A stretch of 64,000 nucleotides of DNA, taken from positions 588,559-652,558 of the forward strand of contig OZ025855.1 of assembly GCA_964019425.1 (NCBI GenBank), written 5' to 3'. The translations under genes were made by a program, and so were the position numbers. The notes below the pieces were generated by a model that ran no database searches, had not been told where the DNA came from, and saw only the letters and a program-made list of their open reading frames with translations. Each line of letters starts with the position of its first letter. Position 1 is the first letter of the stretch. Origin of the DNA: Flectonema sp. DT1601. Taxonomy: Eukaryota; Euglenozoa; Diplonemea; Diplonemida; Diplonemidae. This document shows positions 5,589 through 64,000 of the stretch, one piece after another.

Positions 5589-5824
5589 CATACCTTTCTT
5601 CTACTGATAGGGAAGTGTCCTCCTATTCTTATTAATTGAGATTCGTATATTCTTTCTGAGTAATAATTAAGTTTACTTTACTTTTTATCAGTTTAAGGGC
5701 GGTTTCGTGCACAAACAAAACATCATCGGTGTGATATTAATATTTTTCTGTATAGTTTAAGATAAAAAGCCAAATTCTTTTTTTTTTTTTATTATTATTT
5801 TGTTTCAGGGAAAACCTAATTAGA

Positions 5825-29679: not shown

Positions 29680-31065
29680 ATGACAGAGTTTGCGCCTCAA
29701 AGTGGGCAGTCGTCAGACCTGATGGCTGCTCTCTCTAACCTGCAAGCAAGTGGTCCAATGCTGACTGTGTCATCCTCTCCATTATTTGATGCAATTATTG
29801 CTCTGTTTCGGTTTAGTAAGGAACAGGCGATGAGACAGAATGAAGAAAACGGAGCTATGAAACGAGAAATGAGCGAACTTCGGGAAATGGTAGAACGAAC
29901 AAGACAGAGTATTACAACGCTTGAAGAGAAAAAACAACCACCATCATCAAGACCAGAAGAGTTAGAAGAAATAAGAAGAGAAGTAGAACGTGTTGAACGA
30001 TCAACAGCAGCTCGTCAATTAGAACAAGACAGTGTGAATCAAGAATGTATCAGAAAGATACAAAAGGTTCAAAACGACGTTAGTAATCTCAAGGATGACA
30101 TTAGTGGGTTGGCTAAAGCATCCGCAGTCGAGGAATTAGTTGGAAATGAATTACAGAAGACTCGACAAGATCTCAGTCACCAAATTGATGGCTTGAGGAC
30201 TCAAGTATCAGGACAGCTGAAAGAAGTCGCTCAAACTGTATCTCAAGTTGATCAAAACTGCAATCGATTTGACCAACAAAGCCAGACCAGAGACAGAACT
30301 TTTGAACAAGATCTACGTAAGGCTCAAGATGAAATAAAATTACTCTTAGACAGACCAACTCCTCCACAACAAGTTGTCGTACAGCAACCAACTCAACAAC
30401 TACCATCAAATAATAGCGGACACCTTACTGAAGCATTCCACGCTTTAAAAGATAGACTTCTTGACTTGGAAGATACTCGTGATGAACAAGGTAAAGCAGC
30501 TGTAGTCATAACACAATACTTTGATAAACTTGATCATTTATATTCTGTTTTAGAATTAGATAAACGTTCTGCTGCTATGGCTGCTTCTCAAGGAGTTGAA
30601 GAAAAGGTGACATTACTACACTCACTGCCGGCATTTAAATCATTGAAGAGACTTATTCAACAGATACCATCAGCACTTCCACAGCAACCAGTTAGAGCTG
30701 TACCAGGTCATCATCATAGAAGGATATCACCATCCAGGGGTAGAGATAATGTGATTCATGTGACTGCTGCTGGTGTTGATATTTCAGATCAAAAAGGTCC
30801 GAATGGTGGTGGTATTACAGTTGTTGATGTCACACCTGGAGGACCTGCATCAGATGCTGGATGGCAACCGGGAGATCATCTTGTTGGAATATTCGGAAAC
30901 CCTCTCACAGGTGGCGCTCAAGATTTCGCTGCTGCAATCTCTCGCTCTTCTCTTTCATCTGTTCCTGTTACAAGAATACCAGTTGGACATTACAGACCTG
31001 TTTCTGGTAATGTTAACTTCAGCACTCGCTCAACAACTCCGATACGTGAGAGGTCTTGGCATTAG
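29680..31065 (+). CDS. Coiled-coil protein with C-terminal PDZ domain
   Basis: A 462-residue protein. I start at 29680 (MTEFAPQSGQ), 14 bases after the acceptor CTCTTTTCAG; an in-frame Met at 29596 lies upstream of this acceptor and would be removed. Residues about 45-235 are heptad-rich coiled coil (KREMSELREMVERTRQSITT and following), then a Gln/Pro linker and a second helical segment (about 250-340). Residues about 355-445 fit a PDZ domain: GGGITVVDVTPGGPASDAGW then QPGDHLVGIFGNPLTGGAQD, with the usual GxxSxAGLxxGDxIxxxNG pattern. The carboxylate-binding loop is not the classic GLGF. This is probably a scaffold that oligomerises through the coil. No signal peptide or membrane segment is visible. 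Confidence 0.8.
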   Translation: MTEFAPQSGQSSDLMAALSNLQASGPMLTVSSSPLFDAIIALFRFSKEQAMRQNEENGAMKREMSELREMVERTRQSITTLEEKKQPPSSRPEELEEIRREVERVERSTAARQLEQDSVNQECIRKIQKVQNDVSNLKDDISGLAKASAVEELVGNELQKTRQDLSHQIDGLRTQVSGQLKEVAQTVSQVDQNCNRFDQQSQTRDRTFEQDLRKAQDEIKLLLDRPTPPQQVVVQQPTQQLPSNNSGHLTEAFHALKDRLLDLEDTRDEQGKAAVVITQYFDKLDHLYSVLELDKRSAAMAASQGVEEKVTLLHSLPAFKSLKRLIQQIPSALPQQPVRAVPGHHHRRISPSRGRDNVIHVTAAGVDISDQKGPNGGGITVVDVTPGGPASDAGWQPGDHLVGIFGNPLTGGAQDFAAAISRSSLSSVPVTRIPVGHYRPVSGNVNFSTRSTTPIRERSWH

Positions 31066-31866
31066 TATCTCTTTGGTTCGAACAATACAACTCCTAACCT
31101 GTTTATTAATTGATATTTATTTAATATAGAACTGTATTCTTAGATTAACGTGTTCCCTCTCCTCTGTGGGCTTTAGATATTTATTTTATGTTATTGTGGT
31201 TGATTTATTTTGTTTTTTATTTTTGATATATTTTTTCTACCAAAAAAAAACAAACAGTAAATGAAATTAAACTGACTGAGTCTCGTAGTGGGAGTAGTGG
31301 GAGTGTACTTTTGCAAAAAAGTAATCATTTAAATAAAGTGAAAACAATACCTATTGACTCAGATTCGCACTTCCCACGCACAATGTAAGTATCACAATAC
31401 TCGAGTGAGGACTACTAATAATGGATGCCAGGTAAGGTTTATATGTGTGCTACATCACACTGCACCAGTCGTTATAAATTAGTTGTGTGTCACGTAGTGT
31501 TATTTCTTTTTCTTTTTAACAGGTTGTGGTAGTTGTTTGTTTTTTGTATTGACTCGTCTGAGCTACACACATGCCAATGTATTCTGGAAGGCACGATGGT
31601 GAAAACCATCACAAGTTCTATAGAGAAGCTGCTGCTGACCGAAAGGTTTGGTGGTGACTGCCTCTATCAGAACTGCGGAAAAAAAGAGACAACCAACGTC
31701 TTGATGCTTTTAACTCTCGGGTGCGTACTTTCGGGTACTCCCTGTTGGTTAGAGTAACAAGAAACCTGGTTGATCCTGCCAGTGATATAATAAACTTTAA
31801 TGAATTTTAATTATTATTTTTTGTGAATAAACTTCTTGTATTGAGCAGCAGGATAACTTAGCGAAG
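31066..31866. other. Spacer upstream of histone gene, holding an rRNA fragment
   Basis: The spacer is balanced in composition from about 31380 to 31780. A possible 5'-UTR intron runs from CCAG/GTAAGG (31433) to TTTTTAACAG (31523). A 74-codon ORF at 31533-31757 has no recognisable similarity. The SSU rRNA 5'-end match follows at 31763-31783. The last 80 bases are A/T-rich and lead to the histone start. Confidence 0.5.
31763..31783 (+). rRNA. SSU rRNA 5'-end fragment (about 21 bases)
   Basis: AACCTGGTTGATCCTGCCAG followed by T is identical to the conserved 5' end of eukaryotic 18S rRNA. The expected continuation (AGTCATATGC) is absent; GATATAATAAAC follows. This is a fragment, not a gene. The match is long enough (21 of 21) to be unlikely by chance in 64 kb. 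See also the 3'-end fragment at 33764-33812. Confidence 0.7.
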
Positions 31867-32406
31867 ATGCCAAAACCAGTCTACTACGCTGTGAGTGGTA
31901 AGGGAGCTCCAGATGGTACTACTCAGTCGTCAACCACTGGATCAGGTAACCGTCAGGCACCAAAATCAAAGGGAGCAGCGGCTAAGAAAGGTAAACAGCT
32001 GAAGAAGAGTAAGAACAAAGACAAGAAAGAGAAAAAGCCAAAAGAGAAGAAATACTTGAAGGTGGCTCAACAGATGAGAATGTTACAACGTTCTACCCAC
32101 ACAGTAATTACTAAGGCTAGCTTTCAAAGACTTGTAAGAGGAGTTGTTGAGAAGCACAAGTCAATGATTAGATTCACTCCTGGTAGTCTTAGTGCTCTTC
32201 AAGAGGCAGCAGAAGCACATGCTATCGGAATCTTTTCGGTATGAACACATATTCAGTTCTGGTAATAAATCAGCTTCTCAACTATAACAACAAAACAACA
32301 GGACGCTTCCCTCTTTGCTGGTCACGCAAACAGAATTACTGTGATGAGAAAAGACATCTGTCTAGTGAGACACGTTAGGTGTTTGGCAGGTGGACCGGAA
32401 TTTTAA
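31867..32406 (+). CDS. Divergent histone H3 variant (possible centromeric type)
   Basis: Two exons, 31867-32238 and 32302-32406, with a 63-base intron (GTATGAAC ... AAAACAACAG); the join gives 158 residues. The histone fold is clear: FQRLVRGVVEKHKSMIRFTP then GSLSALQEAAEAHAIGIFSD then ASLFAGHANRITVMRKDICL match H3 FQRLVR, ALQEASEAYLVGLFED and the HAKRVTIMPKDIQL block. The canonical tail (ARTKQTARKSTGG) is absent; instead there is a 75-residue Lys/Gly/Ser-rich tail, and the C-terminus is extended by CLAGGPEF. Loop 1 is not lengthened as it often is in CENP-A, so centromeric identity is only a possibility; a transcription- or boundary-type variant such as H3V is another. It would sit in chromatin as an H3 replacement. 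Confidence 0.85.
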
Positions 32407-33613
32407 ATTGTTCGGAATTTTGTTATTAGTGAGTTGTGTTACCAACCTTCCCACCAACTACTACCCCAATTTGTTGGATACGTTAAAGAAATTAAAATGT
32501 GAGAGCTTTCTTTAGTCAGCTCCATAAAAGAAAGAAACAAAAAAAAAAAAAAGATAGTTGTAAAAGAATGGAACGAAAAGAATGATTTTATCGTATTATA
32601 CGACGGGTGTGATTCTTGTCTATAAAATGTTTAAAAAAAAAAAAAAAAAGAAAAATATTTGTAAAGCTGCCCAGCAGGTAACAACGTCGTGATCTCTGTT
32701 CTGCTAAAGACTTCCTCACACTGTCAAAGTTGTTGAGAGACAACAGATACATATTCGACAGATCTTTGACAACCTCAACGTGCAAAGGCATTGTCAAACA
32801 GGTGATGCCACCACGGTTAGCACGTGCTTCGCACTGATGGGGTATTACTGTGTAGCTGTTTAAGTTGTAAGACAGTATTGTTGTTCTCTGTGTTGGACCC
32901 CCCCTTCGCTCAGTCTTTCACAATTTGGTATACTTGCCCGTGGGCTTCATGTGAAGGCACTTTTCTTGTTGATCTTTTTTTTTCCCTTATTTTTTTCCTT
33001 CCCATTCTTTCTTGTTATTTTTTTTCACACCTATCCCCTGATGACAGTACCGAGTGAGTTAAGAAATTAAAAAAAAAAAAAAATATAGCTATTTTTTTTT
33101 ATTTCCCTTTTATTCATTTTTTTTTTTTTTTTTTTTTTTTGACTCTCTCTGGAAAGGAAAAAAAAATAAAAATAAAAATAAAACTACAATACGAATTAAG
33201 GCAAACGAATTGGAGCATTGTTTTCCTTACCGACATTCGTATTGGTTTTTTTGGTCACGTGAATTGATAACAAGTAATCTGCAAGGTTGAGGAAGGGGAG
33301 GGTGAGAGAACAACGTGACATATACAAAAAAAAAAAAAGCACATAAAGAAAAAAAAAACATAAGTGAATAAAGAAGAAAGCAGTAACCAAGTGACGTAAG
33401 TGACTGAAGAGCGGTCCTTTGCCGCCAAACTATAATAACATACAACAGAGTGTGTTATGAAGTAAATCACTTTACAGCTTTAAGGAGATGGTGCATCCTG
33501 TGGTGAGTCTAAATTAGTAAGGTCGTGTTTTATTATTTGAATGGTGGGATTAATATTTCTCTGCGTAGACACTTTCGAGAACTCTCAAAAAAAAAAAAAA
33601 AAAAAAAAAAAAA
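32407..33613. other. Spacer between histone and Sec61 beta genes
   Basis: A balanced-composition segment at about 32660-32990 is flanked by A/T tracts (A at about 32633-32649, T at about 33118-33140, A at about 33587-33613). In it a + frame stays open for about 55 codons up to a stop at 32836, and a minus-strand frame is open across the same bases; neither is convincing. The final A tract of about 27 bases directly abuts the ATG of the first Sec61 beta copy. Confidence 0.5.
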
Positions 33614-33983
33614 ATGCGCTCCTCCGCCCGTCAGCAGCGTCGTAGCAACAAAGCTAACCAGGTTTGTGTTCCTTTTGTTTTTTGAGTGTGAAAACTCTTA
33701 TTCTCCTCGGTAGGTCAGTTTTACTTGCCAACCAAGGCCAGCTGACTAACAGACTTCGACTTTGGTAATGATCCTGCTGCAGGTTCACCTACAGCAACCT
33801 TGTTACGACTTTTGCTTTAGTACGGGTTTGATATAATAACAACAACAACAACAACAGCTTGGAATTGACTCAGAGGAAGAAGGATTGGGATTCAAAGTCG
33901 GACCAGTTATGGTGATGGCCAGTTCACTTGTCTTTACCGTAGTGATTATTGTTGCTCACGTCGGATCGAAGTTCTTGCGTTAA
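33614..33983 (+). CDS. SEC61B: Sec61 beta subunit, copy 1
   Basis: Exons 33614-33661 and 33858-33983, intron 196 bases (GTTTGTGT ... AACAACAACAACAG), 57 residues. The second exon encodes EEEGLGFKVGPVMVMASSLV then FTVVIIVAHVGSKFLR, matching the conserved GLKVGPVPVLVMSLLF ... H..GK tail anchor of Sec61 beta; the N-terminal 16 residues are basic and short (the family is usually 80-100 residues). It is a tail-anchored subunit of the ER Sec61 translocon. The intron is about 125 bases longer than that of copy 2 and holds an antisense SSU rRNA fragment. The ATG follows an A tract of about 27 bases without any spacer. Exon 2 is identical in DNA to that of copy 2. Confidence 0.88.
33764..33828 (-). 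rRNA. Antisense SSU rRNA 3'-end fragment inside an intron
   Basis: Read on the minus strand, bases 33812-33764 give AAGTCGTAACAAGGTTGCTG, then TAGGTGAACCTGCAGCAGGA and TCATTACC: the 3' terminus of SSU rRNA including helix 45 with its GGTGAAC loop. The helix-45 stem (GCTG/CAGC) shows compensatory change from the common TTCCG/CGGAA form and resembles the kinetoplastid version, so it is a genuine rRNA-derived sequence. Upstream similarity fades by about 33828. It lies wholly within the intron of Sec61 beta copy 1, antisense to it. Confidence 0.8.
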
Positions 33984-34029
33984 ATACTTAATTGAAATTA
34001 AAAAAAAGAGTTCAAATCCTTGTCCAGTT

Positions 34030-34082
34030 CGACCCCGGCCGTCGGTGAATTCTTCTCACACCTGTACCTTTGGCTGGGGTTG
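34030..34082. other. 11-bp stem-loop between the Sec61 beta copies
   Basis: CGACCCCGGCC at 34030-34040 pairs with GGCTGGGGTTG at 34072-34082 (nine Watson-Crick and two G-U pairs) around a loop of about 31 bases. It is the most stable structure in the 3' flank of copy 1. Either a 3'-UTR element or a small RNA is possible. Confidence 0.45.
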
Positions 34083-34235
34083 AAATGTTAGAAAAAGTGT
34101 TGCCGTTGCCTGCCTATTAGGTTTTTGTAGGTTGAAGCATTTTTGTATGGGAAGTATTTATTATTCGTTTGTTGTGTTGTATTGATGTTACCTTTCTGTG
34201 ACAGAACTTTTGTATCTTTCCTACCTACTTTAAAA

Positions 34236-34480
34236 ATGCGCTCTTCCGCCCGTCAGCAGCGCCGTAGCAACAAGGCTAACCAGGTGTGCATATTGTATTA
34301 TTGTTTTCAAGGCAACTAGTTCGGTAGAAATAACAACAACAACAACAACAACAGCTTGGAATTGACTCAGAGGAAGAAGGATTGGGATTCAAAGTCGGAC
34401 CAGTTATGGTGATGGCCAGTTCACTTGTCTTTACCGTAGTGATTATTGTTGCTCACGTCGGATCGAAGTTCTTGCGTTAA
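34236..34480 (+). CDS. SEC61B: Sec61 beta subunit, copy 2
   Basis: Exons 34236-34283 and 34355-34480 with a 71-base intron (GTGTGCAT ... AACAACAACAACAG), encoding the same 57 residues as copy 1. Exon 1 differs from copy 1 only at synonymous sites (e.g. TCC/TCT, CGT/CGC, AAA/AAG); exon 2 is identical, and the introns share only the (AAC)n end. This pattern points to a tandem duplicate under protein-level constraint, with exon 2 homogenised by conversion or the duplication being recent. Confidence 0.88.
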
Positions 34481-35165
34481 GATAGTCTCAATGTGAAAAA
34501 CAAGTAAGTACGTTTTGCTTTTAATAAATAACTATAGTTTTGAGGAGGTCCGCTGACGCAACGACTCTGCAGGGACTTAGCAAACAACCTCTTACCGAGA
34601 CGAGTAGAAAGGATATTATTTGGAATTGACAGCGAGGTGAGAAGCACTTTCTTCGCCTTTACAGTTTCGTTTTCCCTCTCTAGTTTTGTGGCGTACTCCT
34701 ACGTATTTTATTTTCATTTTTTTTGTTTGTGCTCATTCGCATTTTTTATTTGTTTTTTTATTTTTTCTCTTTTTTTGACTGATAGTATTTTGACTCGAGA
34801 GCTTAAGGAACTCTTTCTTCTCACAAACCCAAAGAGTATTTTAAATTCGCGATTCATTTTCCTGGTAATAAGTAATTCCTAAAATTACACTTGTTCTCTC
34901 TCTCAAGGTTGACTAACATCAAAAAAAAAAAAAAAGGGCGAAGGGGTATTTCCTACACATATAGTTTCAGAATACAAAATCAAAAATAGCTGTAAATCGT
35001 CCAGTTCGATTCTGGATGTCAATTATTTTCCGCTTTTAAAAATTTCTTTACAGCTTTTCGCTTTTAACTCTCAACAATATAAAAAAAAAAAAAAAATAAA
35101 AATAAATAACTAGCATAAAAACTTGTTTTTATTATTACAAGTGAATACAGGATATATAAAAAAAA
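34481..35165. other. Spacer with exon-like piece and T-arm-like hairpin
   Basis: At about 34570-34635 the sequence reads RDLANNLLPRRVERILFGID, then SE, before a donor-like GTGAGAAG; its end echoes the first codons of Sec61 beta exon 2 (LGIDSE). TCCAG-TTCGATT-CTGGA at 35000-35016 mimics a tRNA T arm, but no other tRNA arms fit. A tracts lie at about 34921-34935 and 35082-35096. No complete gene is seen. Confidence 0.4.
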
Positions 35166-39874: not shown

Positions 39875-42800
39875 ATGGCGTTCTTCTGGCAAATATTAGT
39901 TTTGGTTCTAATTGGAAGTGTTGATGAAATCAGTGCCATAAACTACCGCTATTGGGTGGGAAGGATAACACAGACAGGACGAGGATTCGACGTCAATGGA
40001 GTTCAAGAATACATCACACGAGGATATGTCGTTAGTATGCCTTCCTCAGCAAGCTTTTCAGCAGAAGCATGTGTCCGTTGTTTTGGTGTTGGTATTGGTG
40101 CCAACAGTGGTTGTGAAATGACTGGTGCTAACTTTGACTCAGGTATCGTAACAAATGATGATGTTAGTCTAGTAGTAGCATTAGACTCATGGGAAGAGGA
40201 TAATATTCCTCATGATTGTACTTTCTTACCTGGTGTTGATGATGGGTTGTCTCATATTTCTTGTGCTTCTCCAAATATACCATCTACGACACGGAATGTT
40301 GTTCATAGTTTTGTCTGTACGGGTACTAATTTCGAGGTTGAGATATTTTTCATTTGGGGAGACTTTACGGTTGCTCCTGATACCATAGCCCCAACACCAA
40401 TGCCACAAACATCTGTTCCAGATACTACAGTACCTGTTGGATCGACAGCAACACCAGTTCCCATGACGCCAACACCAACAGCCTTTCCAGCAACAGCAGC
40501 TGGTCCAACACCGGCGCCGTTAGTTTTAACAGACGCGCCATTTCCCCCAACTGCTATTCCGACAGCAGTTCCGACAGCGGTGCCTACTTTGGTTCCACCA
40601 ACGCCTGTCCCAGTCACTTCATCTCCACTTATGACATCTACACCAGTTCCTAACACACTCAGCCCTGGATCTACTAATGTACCGACTCCTGTTCCAGTAA
40701 CGCCGAGTCCTCCTTCAACTACATCTACACCAGTTCCAGATACAACATCTCCGGGTATTAATCCGACACCTGTTCCAATAACTTTGTCACCTCCTCTTAC
40801 GGCAACCCCTGTTCCGAACACACTAGCGCCTGGAACTACAAATGTTCCAACTTCAGTTCCTTCAACACCATCACCGCCTTCTACAACAAGTACACCAGTT
40901 CCTAATACCTTATCACCGGGTGTGCTTACAACATCAGTTCCAGTTACTCCTTCTCCTTTAGGTAGCACGTCTACACCAGTCCCTGTTACTTTGTCTCCTG
41001 GGATTACTTCAGTCCCTTCTACACCAGTCCCTGTTACAATAGCACCACTTTCAACATCGACACCAGTTCCAAATACACTAACACCTGGAACAACTGTAGT
41101 ACCATCTACTGCAACACCAGTTCCAAGTACTCCATCTCCTCCAGTGTCAACACCTGTTCCTAACACACTCAGTCCTGGATCCACCAATGCCCCGACTCCT
41201 GTCCCTGTAACACCAAGTCCGCCTTCGACTACAGCGACACCGGTTCCGAACACCCTTTCACCGAGTGTTCCATCAACTTCGGTTCCTGTGACTCCGAGTC
41301 CACCGTCGACTACATCAACACCAGTTCCGAACACCCCGTCACCTGGTGTTGTTCCGACTCCAGTTCCTGGAACAGCTTCACCACCTTCGACGACTGCCAC
41401 CCCAGTTCCGAACACTTTGTCACCTGGCAGTACTGCTGTACCGACTCCTGTTCCGAATACTGCGGCGCCGGCATCCACGACAGCGACACCCGTTCCGAAC
41501 ACCCCGACACCGATTATCATTGTGTCGACTTCAGTTCCGAACACACCGGGACCGCTTGGATCAACTAATACACCAGTTCCGAACACTTTGGCTCCGGGTA
41601 CGACAAGCGTTCCTTCAACACCAGTTCCTCAGACTGCGTCACCTCCAGTAGCAACTCCTGTACCAAACACATTGTCACCTGGTAGTACTGCAGTACCATC
41701 TACTGCAACACCAGTTCCAAGTACTCCATCTCCTCCAGTGTCAACACCTGTTCCTAACACACTCAGTCCTGGATCCACCAATGCTCCGACTCCTGTCCCT
41801 GTAACACCAAGTCCACCATCGACTACATCAACACCAGTTCCGAACACTCCATCACCTGGTGTTGTTCCGACTCCAGTTCCTGGAACAGCTTCACCGCCTT
41901 CGACGACTGCCACCCCAGTTCCGAACACCTTGTCACCTGGCAGTACTGCTGTACCGACTCCTGTTCCGAATACTGCGGCGCCGGCATCTACGACAGCGAC
42001 ACCAGTTCCTAACACCCCGGCACCGATTATCATTGTGTCGACTTCAGTTCCGAACACACCTGGACCGCTTGGATCAACTAATACACCAGTTCCGAACACT
42101 TTGGCACCGGGTACGACAAGCGTTCCTTCAACACCAGTTCCTCAGACTGCGTCACCTCCAGTAGCAACTCCTGTACCAAACACATTGTCACCTGGTAGTA
42201 CTGCAGTACCATCTACTGCAACACCAGTTCCAAGTACTCCATCTCCTCCAGTGTCAACACCTGTTCCTAACACACTCAGTCCTGGATCCACCAATGCTCC
42301 GACTCCTGTCCCTGTAACACCAAGTCCGCCTTCAACTACAGCGACACCAGTTCCGAACACCCTTTCACCGAGTGTTCCATCAACTTCGGTTCCTGTGACT
42401 CCGAGTCCACCGTCGACTACATCAACACCAGTTCCGAACACTCCGTCACCTGGTGTTGTTCCGACTCCAGTTCCTGGAACAGCTTCACCGCCTTCGACGA
42501 CTGCCACCCCAGTTCCGAACACCTTGTCACCCGGCAGTACTGCTGTACCGACTCCTGTTCCGAATACTGCGGCGCCGGCATCCACGACAGCGACACCCGT
42601 TCCTAACACCCCGACACCGATTATCATTGTGTCGACTTCAGTTCCGAACACACCGGGACCGCTTGGATCAACTAATACGCCAGTTCCGAACACTTTGGCT
42701 CCGGGTACGACAAGCGCTCCTTCAACACCAGTTCCTCAGACTGCGTCACCTTCAGTAGCAACTCCTGTACCAAACACATTGTCACCTGGTAGTACTGCAG

Positions 42801-45800
42801 TACCATCAACTGCAACACCAGTTCCAAGTACTCCATCTCCTCCAGTGTCAACACCTGTTCCTAACACACTCAGTCCTGGATCCACCAATGCTCCGACTCC
42901 TGTCCCTGTAACACCAAGTCCGCCTTCAACTACAGCGACACCAGTTCCGAACACCCTTTCACCGAGTGTTCCTTCAACTTCGGTTCCTGTGACTCCGAGT
43001 CCACCGTCGACTACATCAACACCAGTTCCGAACACTCCGTCACCTGGTGTTGTTCCGACTCCAGTTCCTGGAACAGCTTCACCACCTTCGACGACTGCCA
43101 CCCCAGTTCCGAACACCTTGTCACCTGGCAGTACTGCTGTACCGACTCCTGTTCCGAATACTGCGGCGCCGGCATCCACGACAGCGACACCCGTTCCTAA
43201 CACCCCGACACCGATTATCATTGTGTCGACTTCAGTTCCGAACACACCTGGACCGCTTGGATCAACTAATACACCAGTTCCGAACACTTTGGCACCGGGT
43301 ACGACAAGCGTTCCTTCAACACCAGTTCCTCAGACTGCGTCACCTCCAGTAGCAACTCCTGTACCAAACACATTGTCACCTGGTAGTACTGCAGTACCAT
43401 CTACTGCAACACCAGTTCCAAGTACTCCATCTCCTCCAGTGTCAACACCTGTTCCTAACACACTCAGTCCTGGATCCACCAATGCTCCGACTCCTGTCCC
43501 TGTAACACCAAGTCCGCCTTCAACTACAGCGACACCAGTTCCGAACACCCTTTCACCGAGTGTTCCATCAACTTCGGTTCCTGTGACTCCGAGTCCACCG
43601 TCGACTACATCAACACCAGTTCCGAACACTCCGTCACCTGGTGTTGTTCCGACTCCAGTTCCTGGAACAGCTTCACCGCCTTCGACGACTGCCACCCCAG
43701 TTCCGAACACCTTGTCACCTGGCAGTACTGCTGTACCGACTCCTGTTCCGAATACTGCGGCGCCGGCATCCACGACAGCGACACCCGTTCCTAACACCCC
43801 GACACCGATTATCATTGTGTCGACTTCAGTTCCGAACACACCGGGACCGCTTGGATCAACTAATACGCCAGTTCCGAACACTTTGGCACCGGGTACGACA
43901 AGCGTTCCTTCAACACCAGTTCCTCAGACTGCGTCACCTCCAGTAGCAACTCCTGTACCAAACACATTGTCACCTGGTAGTACTGCAGTACCAACCCCTG
44001 CGCCAACTAGCACTCCAGTTCCAAATACACCGTCGCCGTTAAGTACTGCGACACCAGTTCCTAACACACCCAGTCCTGGATCTACTAATGCTCCAACTAT
44101 TGTTCCAGTAACTTCGGCACCTGTTGGGACTACTGCAACACCTGTTCCAGTGACACCTTCACCAAATGTTCCAACACCCGTGCCTGGAACACCCAGCCCT
44201 CCTTCCACCACGAGTACGCCTGTTCCAAACACGTTGTCGCCACTTATTATAATTTCGTCATCTGTTCCAGATACTCCGTCGCCTGTTGGAACGACTGCCA
44301 CCCCAGTTCCGAATACTGATGCACCTGTTCGACTGACTCCTGTTCCAAATACACCGTCACCACCGACAACTTCAACTCCAGTCCCAGTAACGCTGACACC
44401 TGGGACTACTAGTGCTCCTTCAACAGCAACACCAGTTCCGAATACTAATTCACCTTCTGATACTTCAACACCAGTTCCGAATACATTGAGTCCTGGAACT
44501 ACAAGCGTTCCAACTCCTGTGCCAGACACGACTGCTCCAATTGGTTCTACAGCTACACCAGTTCCTAGTACCCCAGTTCCTGTTGTACCAACACCGGTTC
44601 CAAACACTAATGCACCACTTACAACTAGTACTCCAGTACCAAATACTCTTCCTCCAGGAATTACGTTACAGCCAACTCCTGTACCTATTACTCTTTCCCC
44701 ACCATCGACTACAAGTACTCCTGTTCCTAATACGCTAGCACCTGGTGTGCTTACAACATCAGTACCAAATACGCTGTCACCTAGTGGGATTACGAGTACA
44801 CCAGTACCAAATACAATGGCTCCTGGAGCAACAGCTGTGCCAACAACTCCTGTTCCGAATACCCTATCGCCGTCCACTACTTCTACACCAGTTCCAAATA
44901 CAGCTTCTCCTACTGATACTCCGCCAACAGCTATGCCAACTAGTACACCAGTTCCGAATACTGCTTCGCCTCCGGTTACTTCAACTCCAGTTCCAAACAC
45001 ATTAAGTCCTGGAGCTACTTTTGCACCTACTCCTGTACCAATTACACCATCACCAGTTGGGACAACTGCTACTCCAGTTCCAAATACGTTGTCTCCGAGT
45101 ATTCCATCAACGTCAGTTCCTTCAACTCCAGCACCACCTGGAACTACTGCAACACCTGTTCCAAATACACCTTCACCAGGAATTGTCTCAACTCCAGTTC
45201 CAAATACTAATGCACCGCTTACGACAGCTACTCCAGTTCCTAATACAATAGCTCCTGGGACTACAAATGCACCCACTTCTGTTCCAAATACTTTAGCTCC
45301 AATTGGAACAACGAGTACACCAGTTCCTAATACTCTAGCACCTGGTGTACTTGCAACATCTGTTCCAAATACGTTAGCTCCAGTTGGTACAACTAGTACT
45401 CCAGTTCCAGTAACTCCTGCTCCGGGATCTACATCAGTCCCTTCTACTCCAGTTCCAGTTACACCTTCCCCACCAGCTACTTCTACACCAGTCCCGAACA
45501 CGTTGACACCAGGCACTACTGTAGTACCATCTACTGCAACACCAGTTCCAAGTACTCCATCTCCTCCAGTGTCAACACCTGTTCCTAACACACTCAGTCC
45601 TGGATCCACCAATGCTCCGACTCCTGTCCCTGTAACACCAAGTCCGCCTTCGACTACAGCGACACCAGTTCCGAACACCCTTTCACCGAGTGTTCCTTCA
45701 ACTTCGGTTCCTGTGACTCCGAGTCCACCGTCGACTACATCAACACCAGTTCCGAACACTCCGTCACCTGGTGTTGTTCCGACTCCAGTTCCTGGAACAG

Positions 45801-48800
45801 CTTCACCGCCTTCGACGACTGCCACCCCAGTTCCGAACACCTTGTCACCCGGCAGTACTGCTGTACCGACTCCTGTTCCGAATACTGCGGCGCCGGCATC
45901 CACGACAGCGACACCAGTTCCGAACACCCCGACACCGATTATCATTGTGTCGACTTCAGTTCCGAACACACCTGGACCGCTTGGATCAACTAATACACCA
46001 GTTCCGAACACTTTGGCTCCGGGTACGACAAGCGTTCCTTCAACACCAGTTCCTCAGACTGCGTCACCTCCAGTAGCAACTCCTGTACCAAACACATTGT
46101 CACCTGGTAGTACTGCAGTACCATCTACTGCAACACCAGTTCCAAGTACTCCATCTCCTCCAGTGTCAACACCTGTTCCTAACACACTCAGTCCTGGATC
46201 CACCAATGCTCCGACTCCTGTCCCTGTAACACCAAGTCCGCCTTCAACTACAGCGACACCAGTTCCGAACACCCTTTCACCGAGTGTTCCATCAACTTCG
46301 GTTCCTGTGACTCCGAGTCCACCGTCGACTACATCAACACCAGTTCCGAACACTCCGTCACCTGGTGTTGTTCCGACTCCAGTTCCTGGAACAGCTTCAC
46401 CGCCTTCGACGACTGCCACCCCAGTTCCGAACACTTTGTCACCTGGCAGTACTGCTGTACCGACTCCTGTTCCGAATACTGCGGCGCCGGCATCCACGAC
46501 AGCGACACCCGTTCCTAACACTCCGGCACCGATTATCATTGTGTCGACTTCAGTTCCGAACACACCGGGACCGCTTGGATCAACTAATACGCCAGTTCCG
46601 AACACTTTGGCTCCGGGTACGACAAGCGCTCCTTCAACACCAGTTCCTCAGACTGCGTCACCTCCAGTAGCAACTCCTGTACCAAACACATTGTCACCTG
46701 GTAGTACTGCAGTACCATCTACTGCAACACCAGTTCCAAGTACTCCATCTCCTCCAGTGTCAACACCTGTTCCTAACACACTCAGTCCTGGATCCACCAA
46801 TGCTCCGACTCCTGTCCCTGTAACACCAAGTCCACCTTCGACTACAGCGACACCAGTTCCGAACACCCTTTCACCGAGTGTTCCTTCAACTTCGGTTCCT
46901 GTGACTCCGAGTCCACCGTCGACTACATCAACACCAGTTCCGAACACTCCATCACCTGGTGTTGTTCCGACTCCAGTTCCTGGAACAGCTTCACCGCCTT
47001 CGACGACTGCCACCCCAGTTCCGAACACTTTGTCACCTGGCAGTACTGCTGTACCGACTCCTGTTCCGAATACTGCGGCGCCGGCATCCACGACAGCGAC
47101 ACCCGTTCCTAACACTCCGGCACCGATTATCATTGTGTCGACTTCAGTTCCGAACACACCGGGACCGCTTGGATCAACTAATACGCCAGTTCCGAACACT
47201 TTGGCTCCGGGTACGACAAGCGCTCCTTCAACACCAGTTCCTCAGACTGCGTCACCTCCAGTAGCAACTCCTGTACCAAACACATTGTCACCTGGTAGTA
47301 CTGCAGTACCATCTACTGCAACACCAGTTCCAAGTACTCCATCTCCTCCAGTGTCAACACCTGTTCCTAACACACTCAGTCCTGGATCCACCAATGCTCC
47401 GACTCCTGTCCCTGTAACACCAAGTCCACCTTCGACTACAGCGACACCAGTTCCGAACACCCTTTCACCGAGTGTTCCTTCAACTTCGGTTCCTGTGACT
47501 CCGAGTCCACCGTCGACTACATCAACACCAGTTCCGAACACTCCGTCACCTGGTGTTGTTCCGACTCCAGTTCCTGGAACAGCTTCACCACCTTCGACGA
47601 CTGCCACCCCAGTTCCGAACACCTTGTCACCTGGCAGTACTGCTGTACCGACTCCTGTTCCGAATACTGCGGCGCCGGCATCCACGACAGCGACACCCGT
47701 TCCTAACACCCCGACACCGATTATCATTGTGTCGACTTCAGTTCCGAACACACCGGGACCGCTTGGATCAACTAATACGCCAGTTCCGAACACTTTGGCT
47801 CCGGGTACGACAAGCGCTCCTTCAACACCAGTTCCTCAGACTGCGTCACCTCCAGTAGCAACTCCTGTACCAAACACATTGTCACCTGGTAGTACTGCAG
47901 TACCATCTACTGCAACACCAGTTCCAAGTACTCCATCTCCTCCAGTGTCAACACCTGTTCCTAACACACTCAGTCCTGGATCCACCAATGCTCCGACTCC
48001 TGTCCCTGTAACACCAAGTCCACCTTCGACTACAGCGACACCAGTTCCGAACACCCTTTCACCGAGTATTCCATCAACTTCGGTTCCTGTGACTCCGAGT
48101 CCACCGTCGACTACATCAACACCAGTTCCGAACACTCCATCACCTGGTGTTGTTCCGACCCCAGTTCCTGGAACAGCTTCACCGCCTTCGACGACTGCCA
48201 CCCCAGTTCCGAACACTTTGTCACCTGGCAGTACTGCTGTACCGACTCCTGTTCCGAATACTGCGGCGCCGGCATCCACGACAGCGACACCCGTTCCGAA
48301 CACTCCGACACCGATTATCATTGTGTCGACTTCAGTTCCGAACACACCGGGACCGCTTGGATCAACTAATACACCAGTTCCGAACACTTTGGCACCGGGT
48401 ACGACAAGCGTTCCTTCAACACCAGTTCCTCAGACTGCGTCACCTCCAGTAGCAACTCCTGTACCAAACACATTGTCACCTGGTAGTACTGCAGTACCAA
48501 CCCCTGCGCCAACTAGCACTCCAGTTCCAAATACACCGTCGCCGTTAAGTACTGCGACACCAGTTCCTAACACACTCAGTCCTGGATCTACTAATGTACC
48601 GACTCCTGTTCCAGTAACGCCGAGTCCACCGTCGACTACTTCGACCCCGGTGCCGAATACGTTGTCTCCTGGCCAGGTTTCAACACCCGTACCTAACACT
48701 GCAGCGCCGGCATCTACGACAGCGACACCAGTTCCTAACACCCCGACACCAATAATTATAGTTTCGACTTCAGTTCCTGACACAACATCACCTTTAGGAT

Positions 48801-51800
48801 CAACAAGTACTCCTGTTCCAGTTACACTAAGTCCAGGTAGTACGGGTGTTCCATCTACGCCAGTTCCAAACACAGCAGCACCGCCGGCCACAACAGCTAC
48901 ACCTGTCCCAAGTACACCATCACCTGTGATATTTGTTGCGACTCCAGTTCCAGATAGTGGTTCACCAATTGGGATAACATCAACACCAGTTCCGAATACG
49001 TTGCCTCCGGGTATTACGGCTGTGCCTTCTACACCAGTTCCGAACACACTATCGCCTGCGACTACTTCAACGCCAGTTCCAAATACGTTGACGCCTGGGA
49101 TGACTAATAGTCCTTCAACAGCTACTCCTGTTCCAAATACTAATGCTCCTTCAGGTACAAGTACACCAGTTCCTAATACTTTAAGTCCTGGGACAACATT
49201 AGTACCAACACCAGTTCCAAATACGCTTTCACCTGTAAGTAGTACATCAACACCAGTTCCAAGTACTCCTGTTCCGGGAATTGTTCCTACGCCTGTCCCT
49301 AATACAAATGCACCAGCAGTAACAGCTACTCCAGTTCCGAATACTTTATCACCAGGAACTACTTTGATGCCAACTCCAGTTCCAATTACACCTACCCCGC
49401 CTACTTCTACAAGTACACCTGTCCCTAATACACTAGCGCCTGGAGTCTTTGGAACATCTGTTCCTAACACCGCGTCACCACCTTCAAGTACATCAACACC
49501 AGTTCCAAATACTTTAGCACCTGGAGCTACTATTGTACCACCTACTCCTGTTCCTAATACTGCTTCTCCAGTTGCAACATCGACACCAGTTCCAAATACA
49601 CTTACCCCTGGAGGTACTGCTGTGCCAACATCTGTACCGAATACTGCAGCACCGGTAGGAACAACTTCTACACCTGTTCCAGATACCTTATCGCCTGGCG
49701 TTGTATCAACTTCTACACCTGTTCCGCTTTCACTTTCACCAATCGGAAGTACTTCAACTCCAGTTCCAAATACTTTATCACCTGGAGCTACAAACATTCC
49801 AGCAACGACAACACCTGTACCAGCAACGAATTCTCCACTTATGACATCTACACCAGTTCCTAACACACTCAGTCCTGGATCTACAAATGCACCGACTCCT
49901 GTTCCAATAACAGCGAGTCCTCCTTCAACTACATCTACACCAGTTCCGAACACTCTGTCGCCAAGTGTTCCATCAACATCCGTACCAGCTACGCCTAGTC
50001 CACCATCTACAACAGCAACACCTGTTCCGGACACCCCATCACCTGGAATTATTCCAACTTCAGTTCCAGCTACTCCATCACCACCGTCTTCAACTGCAAC
50101 ACCAGTACCTAACACACTTCCGCCTGGTTTCACGTTGGCACCTACACCTGTACCAAACACGTTTTCACCTCCATCAACCACTGCGACACCAGTTCCAAAT
50201 ACATTAGCTCCTGGTGTCTTCGGTACCCCAGTTCCAGTTACACCTTCACCTCTTGGTACGACATCCACTCCAGTTCCAAACACATTAGCACCAGGTTCAA
50301 CTTTAGTACCATCAACTCCAGTTCCGATTACATCATCACCTGCTTTTACATCAACACCAGTTCCTAACACATTGACTCCTGGTACTACATCTGTGCCAAC
50401 ACCTGTTCCTATAACGGCATCTCCTCTGGGAACAACTTCAACACCAGTTCCTAACACGTTGACACCTGGACTTCTGGTATTTCCAACACCAGTTCCTGAT
50501 ACGGGTGCTCCTGCGGGGACTACAGCCACTCCAGTTCCAAACACTGCAGCACCTGGATTCTCTACGTCGACCCCTGTTCCTGACACTGGAGCACCAGCAG
50601 GCACAACTGCAACGCCAGTTCCTAACACATTGACTCCAGGTGCGACTGTCATGCCAACACCAGTTCCTGATACGGGTGCTCCTGCAGGCACTACAGCCAC
50701 TCCAGTTCCTAACACTGCAGCACCTGGATTCTCTACGTCGACTCCTGTTCCTGACACTGGAGCACCAGCAGGCACAACCGCTACTCCAGTTCCTAACACA
50801 TTGACTCCAGGTGCGACTGTCATGCCAACACCAGTTCCTGATACGGGTGCTCCTGCAGGCACTACAGCCACTCCAGTTCCAAACACTGCGGCTCCTGGAT
50901 TCTCTACGTCGACTCCTGTTCCTGACACTGGAGCACCAGCAGGCACAACTGCAACGCCAGTTCCTAACACATTGACTCCAGGTGCGACTGTCATGCCAAC
51001 ACCAGTTCCTGATACGGGTGCTCCTGCAGGCACTACAGCCACTCCAGTTCCAAACACTGCGGCTCCTGGATTCTCTACGTCGACCCCTGTTCCTGACACT
51101 GGAGCACCAGCAGGCACAACCGCTACTCCAGTTCCTAACACATTGACTCCAGGTGCGACTGTCATGCCAACACCAGTTCCTGATACGGGTGCTCCTGCAG
51201 GCACTACAGCCACTCCAGTTCCAAACACTGCGGCTCCTGGATTCTCTACGTCGACCCCTGTTCCTGACACTGGAGCACCAGCAGGCACAACCGCTACTCC
51301 AGTTCCTAACACATTGACTCCAGGTGCGACTGTCATGCCAACACCAGTTCCTGATACGGGTGCTCCTGCAGGCACTACAGCCACTCCAGTTCCAAACACT
51401 GCGGCTCCTGGATTCTCTACGTCGACTCCTGTTCCTGACACTGGAGCACCAGCAGGCACAACCGCTACTCCAGTTCCTAACACATTGACTCCAGGTGCGA
51501 CTGTCATGCCAACACCAGTTCCTGATACGGGTGCTCCTGCAGGCACTACAGCCACTCCAGTTCCAAACACTGCGGCTCCTGGATTCTCTACGTCGACTCC
51601 TGTTCCTGACACTGGAGCACCAGCAGGCACAACTGCAACGCCAGTTCCTAACACATTGACTCCAGGTGCGACTGTCATGCCAACACCAGTTCCTGATACG
51701 GGTGCTCCTGCAGGCACTACAGCCACTCCAGTTCCTAACACTGCAGCACCTGGATTCTCTACGTCGACCCCTGTTCCTGACACTGGAGCACCAGCAGGCA

Positions 51801-54800
51801 CAACTGCAACGCCAGTTCCTAACACATTGACTCCAGGTGCGACTGTCATGCCAACACCAGTTCCTGATACGGGTGCTCCTGCAGGCACTACAGCCACTCC
51901 AGTTCCTAACACTGCAGCACCTGGATTCTCTACGTCGACTCCTGTTCCTGACACTGGAGCACCAGCAGGCACAACTGCAACGCCAGTTCCTAACACATTG
52001 ACTCCAGGTGCGACTGTCATGCCAACACCAGTTCCTGATACGGGTGCTCCTGCAGGCACTACAGCCACTCCAGTTCCTAACACTGCAGCACCTGGATTCT
52101 CTACGTCGACCCCTGTTCCTGACACTGGAGCACCAGCAGGCACAACCGCTACTCCAGTTCCTAACACATTGACTCCAGGTGCGACTGTCATGCCAACACC
52201 AGTTCCTGATACGGGTGCTCCTGCGGGGACTACAGCCACTCCAGTTCCTAACACTGCAGCACCTGGATTCTCTACGTCGACCCCTGTTCCTGACACTGGA
52301 GCACCAGCAGGCACAACTGCAACGCCAGTTCCTAACACATTGACTCCAGGTGCGACTGTCATGCCAACACCAGTTCCTGATACGGGTGCTCCTGCAGGCA
52401 CTACAGCCACTCCAGTTCCTAACACATTGACTCCAGGTGCGACTGTCATGCCAACACCAGTTCCTGATACGGGTGCTCCTGCAGGCACTACAGCCACTCC
52501 AGTTCCAAACACTGCGGCTCCTGGATTCTCTACGTCGACTCCTGTTCCTGACACTGGAGCACCAGCAGGCACAACTGCAACGCCAGTTCCTAACACATTG
52601 ACTCCAGGTGCGACTGTCATGCCAACACCAGTTCCTGATACGGGTGCTCCTGCAGGCACTACAGCCACTCCAGTTCCTAACACTGCAGCACCTGGATTCT
52701 CTACGTCGACTCCTGTTCCTGACACTGGAGCACCAGCAGGCACAACCGCTACTCCAGTTCCTAACACATTGACTCCAGGTGCGACTGTCATGCCAACACC
52801 AGTTCCTGATACGGGTGCTCCTGCAGGCACTACAGCCACTCCAGTTCCTAACACTGCAGCACCTGGATTCTCTACGTCGACTCCTGTTCCTGACACTGGA
52901 GCACCAGCAGGCACAACCGCTACTCCAGTTCCTAACACATTGACTCCAGGTGCGACTGTCATGCCAACACCAGTTCCTGATACGGGTGCTCCTGCAGGCA
53001 CTACAGCCACTCCAGTTCCAAACACTGCGGCTCCTGGATTCTCTACGTCGACTCCTGTTCCTGACACTGGAGCACCAGCAGGCACAACTGCAACGCCAGT
53101 TCCTAACACATTGACTCCAGGTGCGACTGTCATGCCAACACCAGTTCCTGATACGGGTGCTCCTGCAGGCACTACAGCCACTCCAGTTCCTAACACTGCA
53201 GCACCTGGATTCTCTACGTCGACCCCTGTTCCTGACACTGGAGCACCAGCAGGCACAACTGCAACGCCATTTCCTAACACATTGACTCCAGGTGCGACTG
53301 TCATGCCAACACCAGTTCCTGATACGGGTGCTCCTGCAGGCACTACAGCCACTCCAGTTCCAAACACTGCGGCTCCTGGATTCTCTACGTCGACTCCTGT
53401 TCCTGACACTGGAGCACCAGCAGGCACAACTGCAACGCCAGTTCCTAACACATTGACTCCAGGTGCGACTGTCATGCCAACACCAGTTCCTGATACGGGT
53501 GCTCCTGCAGGCACTACAGCCACTCCAGTTCCTAACACTGCAGCACCTGGATTCTCTACGTCGACCCCTGTTCCTGACACTGGAGCACCAGCAGGCACAA
53601 CTGCAACGCCAGTTCCTAACACATTGACTCCAGGTGCGACTGTCATGCCAACACCAGTTCCTGATACGGGTGCTCCTGCAGGCACTACAGCCACTCCAGT
53701 TCCTAACACTGCAGCACCTGGATTCTCTACGTCGACCCCTGTTCCTGACACTGGAGCACCAGCAGGCACAACTGCAACGCCAGTTCCTAACACATTGACT
53801 CCAGGTGCGACTGTCATGCCAACACCAGTTCCTGATACGGGTGCTCCTGCAGGCACTACAGCCACTCCAGTTCCTAACACTGCGGCTCCTGGATTCTCTA
53901 CGTCGACCCCTGTTCCTGACACTGGAGCACCGGCAGGCACAACTGCAACGCCAGTTCCTAACACATTGACTCCAGGTGCGACTGTCATGCCAACACCAGT
54001 TCCTGATACGGGTGCTCCTGCAGGCACTACAGCCACTCCAGTTCCAAATACTGTTGCGCCTGTTTCAGGTGTATTGTCAACAAGTATTCCAGGCAGTGTT
54101 CCGAATGGTGGTAATGAAAATGGAGGTAACATTAGATCAGAAAATGTAAGAATTGCGAGAGGACGATTTAGTCCTGGAGTTAGATTGTTCCTCTATGATG
54201 ATGTGTTTGGTTGGAGTAATGACGGATCACAATATAAGAATGTACCAGATTATTTGAGAGGTCTTCCATTATGGATTCCAAACACATTACTTGAGGCTAA
54301 TGAAGTTGTGACTTTTACGTGTCCTCAAGAAGGTTTGTCAAATGTTTGTGATGCTTATATTCTAATCGATTTAGTAAATGATTTGAGTACGATAACAGCT
54401 CTTAGAAGTCAAGGTTGGGTTTCTTCATACTGCTCACCTTCTGTGATGACAAATGGAGTTATCAGACCGATGATGGTACTCAGAAGGCAGATTCAACCAG
54501 GTGTAACAGTCAGCGCTCAGTTCCCTAATTCAGTTACTCAATTCACTGGATTTGGAATGTATCAAATAGGAACGTTATGCTCATCAGTTGCTACACCACA
54601 ACAGTGCGTTAGAGATGTTGCTTCGAATGTTTTATGTAAATGGACTACAGCTTCGGGTTGTATTGACGACTTATGTCCAGAAGGATTCACAGTACCACCA
54701 GGTACAGAACTTAATATTACAAATACACCTGGGATTGGAGAAACTACTCCCACACCAACTCCTCTACCTGTTAATGGCGAGACTACTGCTCCAACAAATA

Positions 54801-61894: not shown

Positions 61895-64000
61895 ATGGAT
61901 GAAAAAATATGCATCGCAGTAGAGGATATATTCACCGCGATATTAGAATTGTGGAGGGAAACAACTGGAAGGGATGACACAACACCCGGTGTGTACAAAA
62001 GAAAGCAACTCGTCAGCACAATAATAACTTCATTAGGACAATGTTGGGAACAGGAAATGATTGATAAAGAAACAAAACTGAGAAATACCAATAACCAGCT
62101 TAGGATTAGTGAAGAAGCAATTACTCAAATGTCAAAAGAACAAGACAGATTAAGAACACAGATATCAATTAGAGAATCGAGTGCTGATGAAAGTCGAAAA
62201 CTTTGGATCAGAGAAGTGTTGTTTCTCAGAGAGCGTCTTGTTAGTGACGACAAGTGTGCAGCAAATAACATTCCAACACTACTACCCGATGGAGATCCAC
62301 ATCTTCCTAATGATGGTTTGAAATCCTCAGATTCTGGTACTGCCGAACCTGTTCATAAGTCAGCTCACAGTACCAACACTCTACTCGTACACTACAAAGA
62401 AGAATTACGTCAGCAGACTGCTCTTGCTTCTCAGCTTCAAAGGGAAGTGAAAACACTCCGCGGAGAAGTTGAGATTTTTGAACTAAATCAACAGCAGAAT
62501 GCGACTCGAATCGCTCGATATGGTGAGCAAGTTCAGCAAATGGCTGAAGAAAATGGTCAGAAAACACAAACCATTCTCGATCTTGAATCTAAGATGTGTG
62601 ACTCTCAAAGCCGCTGTGAGCAGCTACTGCAGCAGCTAAACAAACGCCGATCATCATGCCGAAGGAATTCAAGCAGAGGAACTCTGATGAGTCAAACAGT
62701 TAGACGGAAGTCTCGTCAGCCGAGTGTAATCATCGCACCGACTCCAATTGAGGAGTGGAAATATAATTCAAAATTTAAAACTTTTAATTCCAATGAACCT
62801 ACTTCAGCAGTTCCGTCACCGGCAGGAAGTATAGACAAGTCAGAACAAACAAGAACTTCTTGTGGTAGTTCACAACCTTCATTACTTGATGAGCTAACTA
62901 ATGGACGTACTTCTGTTGATGTGAATTCTCATAAGAAGACATCGAGTGAATCAGTTCATGTTGATATAAGTAGCTCTACAGAAGTAGTTAATAACATTAC
63001 ATTGAGTGAAGGTATTGATAACTCAGAACCAGTTATTACAGCCAGTGGTATCAGTTGTGACGTACCTCAGACTACTGTTGTACCTCGTCCTCCTGATAAC
63101 AGTTCTGTTGTGAAAGACAAACAGAGTAGCAGACCATCATCATCTCGAAGGCAGCTCAAATTGAAACCTCGATCGCTATCACGTTCATCACCTCGTTCAT
63201 CACCTAAACCAAGGACTGTATCTGTAGTTGTGATTAAAAGTCCGACTAAACGAAAGTCAACATCACGTAAGCGAGAAAGTCAAATAACTCCATCAGATGA
63301 AACGACTGTTGAACACATCCCAAATGATAACAAAGAAAGAGAACTCAAAGAGGATGTCACTCAGATGGAATCGATTCCAGTTCTACCAACTGATGTCCAA
63401 TCAGAAAGAGAACTCTCATCAGAAATGGAAACACAACAGTTCACTAATACTCCGCATTCATCAAATATAATTAAAAAAGAATCAGAAGAAGAACTGACTG
63501 CTACCAACCAAACTGACAACAATCAAAACCAAACAATCATATCTGTGGATGTAATAAAAGTACCCGAGTGCTCTAAGTGGATTACTACGAGGGATCAGTC
63601 AGTTCAAACAAATTCTTTTGAAAATATCTTTTATGAGGTATCCGTTCCTGAAGGGGATAATCAAAAGCCTGTTGAAGAGTCTAGCTGTGGTTGGGAAATG
63701 ATTGACTTCTCACAGGACTCGAAGAAATTAAGAGACGCGGCGGAGGTGTTTTTTCATCGGAAGTCTCCAAATAATTCTTCACCAATGCCGAGTACAAGAC
63801 CCCCTTCGAGAGCGAAAACAGGAAGTCCGTACCCTCAGACAAGACCACCTTCAGCTTACAGTGATAGGAGTATACCAATATCACCAGTTAGTCGAACTTC
63901 TGATCCTTCTTTGAGAGTGACACCGACTAGGATTGGATTCTCACCATCCCCTGAAGTATCGTCTCCTCATCCGACAGGTCATAACCCTCGTCGTTCTGGA
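61895..64000 (+). CDS. Coiled-coil protein with long disordered tail, 3' end beyond window
   Basis: A single frame stays open from the ATG at 61895 to the last base: 702 codons with no stop. It starts MDEKICIAVEDIFTAILELW. Residues about 45-100 and 150-250 are Gln/Glu/Leu-rich coiled coil (e.g. QLRISEEAITQMSKEQDRLR; EELRQQTALASQLQREVKTL). From about 255 on the protein is Ser/Thr/Pro/Lys-rich and disordered, with basic RSSPRSSPKPR-type patches and, near the window's end, repeated SPxP and TRPPS motifs typical of phosphorylated cytoskeletal or linker proteins. No signal peptide or membrane segment is visible. I recognise no family. A short poly-A leader precedes the start; another ATG at 61881 is out of frame. 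Confidence 0.75.
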   Translation, partial: MDEKICIAVEDIFTAILELWRETTGRDDTTPGVYKRKQLVSTIITSLGQCWEQEMIDKETKLRNTNNQLRISEEAITQMSKEQDRLRTQISIRESSADESRKLWIREVLFLRERLVSDDKCAANNIPTLLPDGDPHLPNDGLKSSDSGTAEPVHKSAHSTNTLLVHYKEELRQQTALASQLQREVKTLRGEVEIFELNQQQNATRIARYGEQVQQMAEENGQKTQTILDLESKMCDSQSRCEQLLQQLNKRRSSCRRNSSRGTLMSQTVRRKSRQPSVIIAPTPIEEWKYNSKFKTFNSNEPTSAVPSPAGSIDKSEQTRTSCGSSQPSLLDELTNGRTSVDVNSHKKTSSESVHVDISSSTEVVNNITLSEGIDNSEPVITASGISCDVPQTTVVPRPPDNSSVVKDKQSSRPSSSRRQLKLKPRSLSRSSPRSSPKPRTVSVVVIKSPTKRKSTSRKRESQITPSDETTVEHIPNDNKERELKEDVTQMESIPVLPTDVQSERELSSEMETQQFTNTPHSSNIIKKESEEELTATNQTDNNQNQTIISVDVIKVPECSKWITTRDQSVQTNSFENIFYEVSVPEGDNQKPVEESSCGWEMIDFSQDSKKLRDAAEVFFHRKSPNNSSPMPSTRPPSRAKTGSPYPQTRPPSAYSDRSIPISPVSRTSDPSLRVTPTRIGFSPSPEVSSPHPTGHNPRRSG

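Follow-up and report, generated by a model that had tools for sequence, protein, structure and literature searches.

The window analysed here, 64,000 nucleotides of Flectonema DNA (G000:C76:588559-652558), is the final 64 kb of its contig in a genome of 89.5 Mb and 92 contigs. An initial annotation recognised in it a sense 5' end and an antisense 3' end of 18S rRNA, neither being part of an rRNA gene. The question raised by this locus is how such sequences came to lie there. The best explanation is that both come from the tandem rDNA array, as short DNA fragments that end joining inserted at chromosomal breaks elsewhere (probability about 0.82).

Two rDNA pieces and their surroundings

The rDNA forms arrays on contig C92 (9 units, 62.8 kb) and close to the starts of C79, C39 and C18, and about one unit lies close to the start of C83. 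The unit is 6884 bp long and comprises an 18S gene of 2049 nt, ITS1, 5.8S, ITS2, 28S and an 892-bp intergenic spacer; gene ends were set by Rfam models, and the 18S, 5.8S and 28S sequences fit the eukaryotic models. A BLAST search of the window, with the unit in locus L009 as the reference, identified two places matching at E 1e-3 and no others: piece 1 (E = 3e-120) and piece 2 (E = 3e-41). In a more sensitive run with 19 slices taken elsewhere in the window, each of 3.1 kb and together omitting 31001-34100 and 62001-64000, no slice matched rDNA, and on the strength of these results a chance origin of the two matches is excluded. Neither place holds a full rRNA gene, the 18S share being 21 nt in piece 1 and 52 nt in piece 2. 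Comparison of the whole window with Rfam gave no match reaching the gathering score, and neither Rfam nor a tRNA scan placed an RNA gene at either piece.

Piece 1 (31551-31783, + strand, 233 bp) is 99.6% identical to the rDNA unit L009, a difference of about one base, and corresponds to positions 5589-5821 in the reverse complement of L009. Its first 212 bp are spacer from upstream of 18S, probably the 5' ETS, and bases 1-21 of 18S follow in sense orientation (31763-31783). Piece 2 (33727-33817, - strand, 91 bp) is 98.9% identical to the rDNA unit, again a difference of about one base, and contains, in antisense, 52 nt of the 18S 3' end (33766-33817) and 39 nt of ITS1 (33727-33765). The perfect 21-base 18S 5' end on the + strand and the antisense 18S 3' end of the initial annotation were therefore both recovered; the 18S part of piece 2 had been extended to 33828 and in fact stops at 33817. 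Neither piece is the rRNA end fragment that had been described, as piece 1 is mostly upstream spacer and piece 2 runs on into ITS1. The 18S ends alone had been noticed because the spacers cannot be recognised by eye. A plasmid collection queried with piece 2 was uninformative: 310 records aligned with about 27% of the piece, presumably through the 3' ends of bacterial 16S (the 20 matches listed carry no annotated feature).

The start codon of a predicted gene for a histone-fold (H3-like) protein (31867-32406, + strand, predicted intron 32239-32301; Pfam Histone, 2.3e-21) lies 83 bp beyond the end of piece 1. The predicted protein is very divergent, its matches to CENP-S and CENP-T fall under the cut-off, and it is perhaps a centromeric H3 variant. 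On the other side, 96 bp before piece 1, sits a diverged fragment of a high-copy transposase-like repeat (31380-31454, + strand; weak Pfam matches under the cut-offs), which may be an independent relic. A search for the empty site of piece 1 found no other copy of the downstream flank, the upstream flank recurred only as the transposase-like repeat, and no empty paralogue was found.

The repeat fragment itself (31380-31454, also L080-L088) is 86% identical to a sequence found in at least 39 further places. L088, a representative locus, holds a stretch of about 0.9 kb and, 5.02 kb along, a second copy of it at 93% identity; frames in this locus match DDE_Tnp_1_7 (E 0.004), zf-Tnp_2 (E 0.02-0.05) and rve (E 0.01) weakly, under the cut-offs; we take these matches to suggest a piggyBac-type element. 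With these weak matches the 76-bp repeat reads as transposase-like rather than small-RNA- or introner-like.

Piece 2 lies within a predicted 196-nt intron (33662-33857, + strand) of a Sec61-beta-like gene, copy 1 (Pfam Sec61_beta, 4.9e-7; predicted exons 33614-33661 and 33858-33983). Copy 2, in tandem about 620 bp downstream, encodes an identical protein and has a predicted 71-nt intron (34284-34354, + strand) that contains no rDNA. The models of the histone-fold and Sec61-beta-like genes are predictions that read through GT-AG introns. The intron of copy 2 is no more than a proxy for the empty site, and the alignment of the two paralogous introns is ambiguous. The tandem genes span 33614-34480, with exon 2 nearly identical and the introns unlike, and a run of 27 A immediately precedes the start codon of copy 1.

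A genome-wide set of dispersed rDNA pieces

Seven queries, consisting of four stretches of the rDNA unit and three 24-mers, were searched against the 89.5-Mb genome. Other fragments, for which the initial annotation had advised a search, were found: at least 128 dispersed places on 62 contigs, the two in the window included, a count from which array copies, places listed a second time and three identical weak matches have been removed. One place dropped as an array copy, C79:27507, is off the array spacing and may be dispersed. In the stretch searches the best 40 of 54, 81, 84 and 108 candidates were scored, so that 128 is a floor; the 24-mer depths of 10, 12 and 21 and the median piece length of 150 bp give a rough estimate of several hundred dispersed pieces in total. 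Allowing up to 2 mismatches and with array copies set aside, dispersed places made up 12 of 29 for the 18S 24-mer, 21 of 37 for the 28S 24-mer and 10 of 28 for the mid-spacer 24-mer, and nine of the 21 for 28S fall in three local clusters.

Thirty-four other dispersed loci were read and contained 47 pieces of 26-1014 bp (median 150) with 80-100% identity to the rDNA; these loci had been selected with queries from three parts of the unit (18S 3' end, 5' end region, spacer) rather than at random, so the counts of piece classes reflect that choice. The end points of the pieces varied among the loci, and 10 of the 34 loci held two or more pieces. The longest, in L066, is a single 1014-bp piece that begins in 28S, takes in the entire spacer and ends in the 18S that follows, and spacer pieces were also present in L073 (100%) and L078 (99%). 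Random placement would give about 0.5 pairs of neighbouring places less than 2.5 kb apart; five were observed, the window pair among them. In three of these pairs (two on C79, one on C59) there are copies that share the very same mismatches, a pattern that makes them look like local duplications. Both window pieces are members of this genome-wide set of rDNA scraps with scattered ends.

Among the few close joins between pieces, seven in all, overlaps of 1, 3, 6 and 12 nt and gaps of 4, 9 and 16 nt were observed; the 12-nt overlap becomes an 8-nt gap under stricter alignment. Words of at least 7 nt were shared between the two flanks in 4 of 42 inserts. Flank similarity slightly exceeded that of a cross-locus control (mean 4.5 versus 3.9 nt; none of 300 shuffles as high), and some inserts may therefore carry target duplications. 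The longest flank repeat among the 42 inserts is in L012, where a compound insert of rDNA has 19 nt in common between its 20-nt flanks.

Origin of the pieces

The pieces derive from rDNA, are spread through the genome, have scattered ends, include intergenic spacer and form compound inserts, with no common target motif and mostly with no flank duplication. In the mechanism proposed, chromosomes would break outside the array, free DNA would be supplied by broken or extrachromosomal rDNA, short rDNA fragments with their spacers would be captured at the breaks, and repair would proceed by end joining, possibly of the alternative kind. The resulting pieces would be functionally neutral, piece 2 enlarging an intron and piece 1 occupying the 5' flank of the histone-like gene. 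Capture of rRNA ends during break repair had been one suggestion of the initial annotation; capture is now the better supported part of it, and what was captured is rDNA with its spacers, not rRNA ends.

The alternative that survives best, though improbable, is that fragments of pre-rRNA or rRNA were reverse-transcribed and inserted by retrotransposon machinery as retro-pseudogenes. Many pieces do contain transcribed rDNA, the 28S 24-mer is more dispersed than the spacer 24-mer (21 versus 10 places), and the 4 of 42 inserts with shared flank words of at least 7 nt, one of 19 nt, could be read in the same way. However, the donor sequence includes transcribed and putatively untranscribed parts, with 10 of 28 mid-spacer 24-mer places dispersed and the L066 piece spanning the spacer. 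DNA capture at break repair is favoured over reverse transcription because dispersed places are about as frequent for the mid-spacer 24-mer as for that of 18S (10 versus 12) and because L066 runs across the whole spacer into the next unit. It is also favoured because true poly-A tails are lacking and flank repeats are few. A poly-A flank was observed in 1 of 49 pieces, where the run is an A-tract that belongs to the rDNA of the adjoining piece, and duplication was inconsistent, so that the marks of LINE-type retro-pseudogenes (poly-A tail and target-site duplication) were confined to 1 of 49 pieces and 4 of 42 inserts. With transcription limits that are putative, the spacer argument for a DNA origin is strong but not complete.

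An artefact of assembly or amplification, arising from chimaeric reads or primers, is unlikely judging from the sequence of the pieces. The 18S 5' end does, we believe, coincide with a widely used primer site; the 18S 3' end here differs from what we take to be the usual universal reverse primer. The pieces continue beyond 18S, one into upstream spacer and the other into ITS1, the 18S 3' end in piece 2 matches the genome's own 18S, and divergence is graded, with about one difference from the array in each window piece and 80-100% identity across loci. Fragments identical to primers and unlike the organism's own 18S, which would have pointed to an artefact, were not what was found, since both pieces match its own rDNA.

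A function for the pieces is equally hard to sustain. The antisense 18S 3' end could be an intron-encoded RNA, lying as it does in a predicted intron, or piece 1 could be part of the promoter of the histone-like gene just downstream. Against this, an Rfam search of 31400-34600 with E values up to 5 gave five matches; all fell at 33006-33226, in stretches rich in A or T, and neither rDNA piece was hit. The other Sec61-beta-like copy also lacks the piece, and the ends differ in pieces elsewhere.

The window pieces share one further feature, the 10-mer GATATAATAA (+ strand), which follows piece 1 immediately (31784-31793) and lies 12 nt beyond piece 2 (33830-33839). Both positions agree with the initial annotation, and no third place occurs in the window on either strand; the statement that the pieces stop at or just before the 10-mer holds exactly for piece 1, and piece 2 ends 12 bases short of it. 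From its genome rate (615 occurrences, versus 283 for the reversed control), about 0.0007 would be expected no more than 25 nt from the ends of the other piece. When 25-nt junction flanks from different loci were compared, however, some 10-mer was common to 22 of 4640 pairs, the window pair included, and the sharing of GATATAATAA is therefore weak evidence; low-complexity and rDNA sequence occur among the 15 listed of these 22 pairs.

At piece 2 the 10-mer looks, from the paralogue alignment, as though it overlaps resident intron sequence. Its 3' half aligns with the end of the copy 2 intron: TAGTACGG..GATATAATAACAAC pairs with TAGTTCGG..TAGAAATAACAAC, which would place GATATAATAA in the resident intron. 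In a rival alignment made by eye, about 15 nt are left as filler and AATAACAAC is still paired. The short sequence beside the pieces was searched for other bits of rDNA, and none above 9 nt was found. Despite the expectation of about 0.0007, coincidence looks like the simplest account of GATATAATAA beside both pieces. Insertion at a common target, the other suggestion of the initial annotation, gained no ground: GATATAATAA was present in 0 of the 34 other dispersed loci read, no common target sequence was apparent with this motif, and 615 copies exist in the genome. An undescribed site-specific element inserting at a target marked by GATATAATAA, for which its presence after both window pieces would speak, is thus the least probable of the alternatives and very improbable, given the 10-mer's absence from those 34 loci, its 12-nt distance from piece 2, its overlap with sequence resembling the insert-free paralogue intron end, and the 22 of 4640 flank pairs sharing some 10-mer.

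rDNA as a probable donor of captured DNA

Two unique-sequence controls were run. A 301-bp single-copy segment of a neighbouring dynamin-like gene matched itself alone. For a 4.8-kb control the best 40 of 130 candidates were scored, so that weaker scattered fragments could be missed; besides the control itself, the list was filled by a SINE-like family of roughly 100 bp (at least 39 places), the rest being four stretches of 37-39 bp (89-92%) close to SINE-like places. As these controls show few or no scattered copies, rDNA appears, base for base, to act as a donor far more often than unique DNA does. By our own estimate, copy number alone could explain this if the true number of units were about 100 or more. 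It is possible, but doubtful, that rDNA is a preferred filler donor in this lineage beyond the effect of copy number, with perhaps several hundred pieces forming a datable, intron-enlarging record of repair; a life stage that makes and then breaks extrachromosomal rDNA, for example, could have this effect. The SINE-like repeat within the window (34921-35018) is a dispersed repeat of about 100 bp, has at least 39 copies elsewhere at 73-82% identity, and holds what we take to be a tRNA B-box-like stretch.

Nuclear copies of mitochondrial DNA (NUMTs) are short and are captured at breaks. As pieces of high-copy DNA caught in this way they resemble the Flectonema pieces (PMC10802722, a preprint), although their donor is mitochondrial and here it is the nuclear rDNA array. 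In yeast, two sources describe insertions at breaks of mtDNA, Ty cDNA, rDNA and other nuclear DNA that are alike in length (about 100-150 bp), rDNA donors and compound inserts (PMC10802722, PMC11724301). In the preprint, growing wild-type cells with an induced break gave 8 long insertions, of which 2 were rDNA; the fragment lengths inserted most often were about 60-150 bp, complex insertions in stationary phase numbered nearly 4,000 of about 33,000, and NHEJ was proposed for fragment capture (PMC10802722). The second source reports few rDNA-derived insertions in rad27-deficient cells, unlike Dna2-deficient cells (PMC11724301). The yeast insertions are new events in the laboratory, whereas those of Flectonema are fixed pieces in a genome assembly, and rDNA is prominent as their donor.

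In the human genome, too, rDNA and spacer lie scattered outside the arrays (Robicheau et al. 2017); in the summary given by PMC6562748 these rDNA-like sequences are degraded, near full length and tend to lie near centromeres, whereas the Flectonema pieces are short and partly near-identical to the array. Microsporidia likewise carry rDNA at many places outside one array, described as dispersed units, in contrast to short fragments beside a normal tandem array (PMC3566094). Among the open-access titles and beginnings of abstracts listed, none reported short rDNA scraps scattered through the genome of a protist.

If the capture reading is right, the rDNA array would serve as a barcode for repair events, each scrap marking a healed break, dated roughly by its divergence and showing in its joins the chemistry of repair. 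Having so many scraps, a genome would allow break repair to be studied in an organism without genetics. In practice, short matches to 18S or ITS that lie outside the arrays of such genomes need not be genes or contaminants, as they can be scraps.

Elsewhere in the window, 39875-55015 holds an open frame of 5046 amino acids with strong GC skew and several antisense frames at 594-bp spacing; the spacing and the skew suggest a giant tandem-repeat protein.
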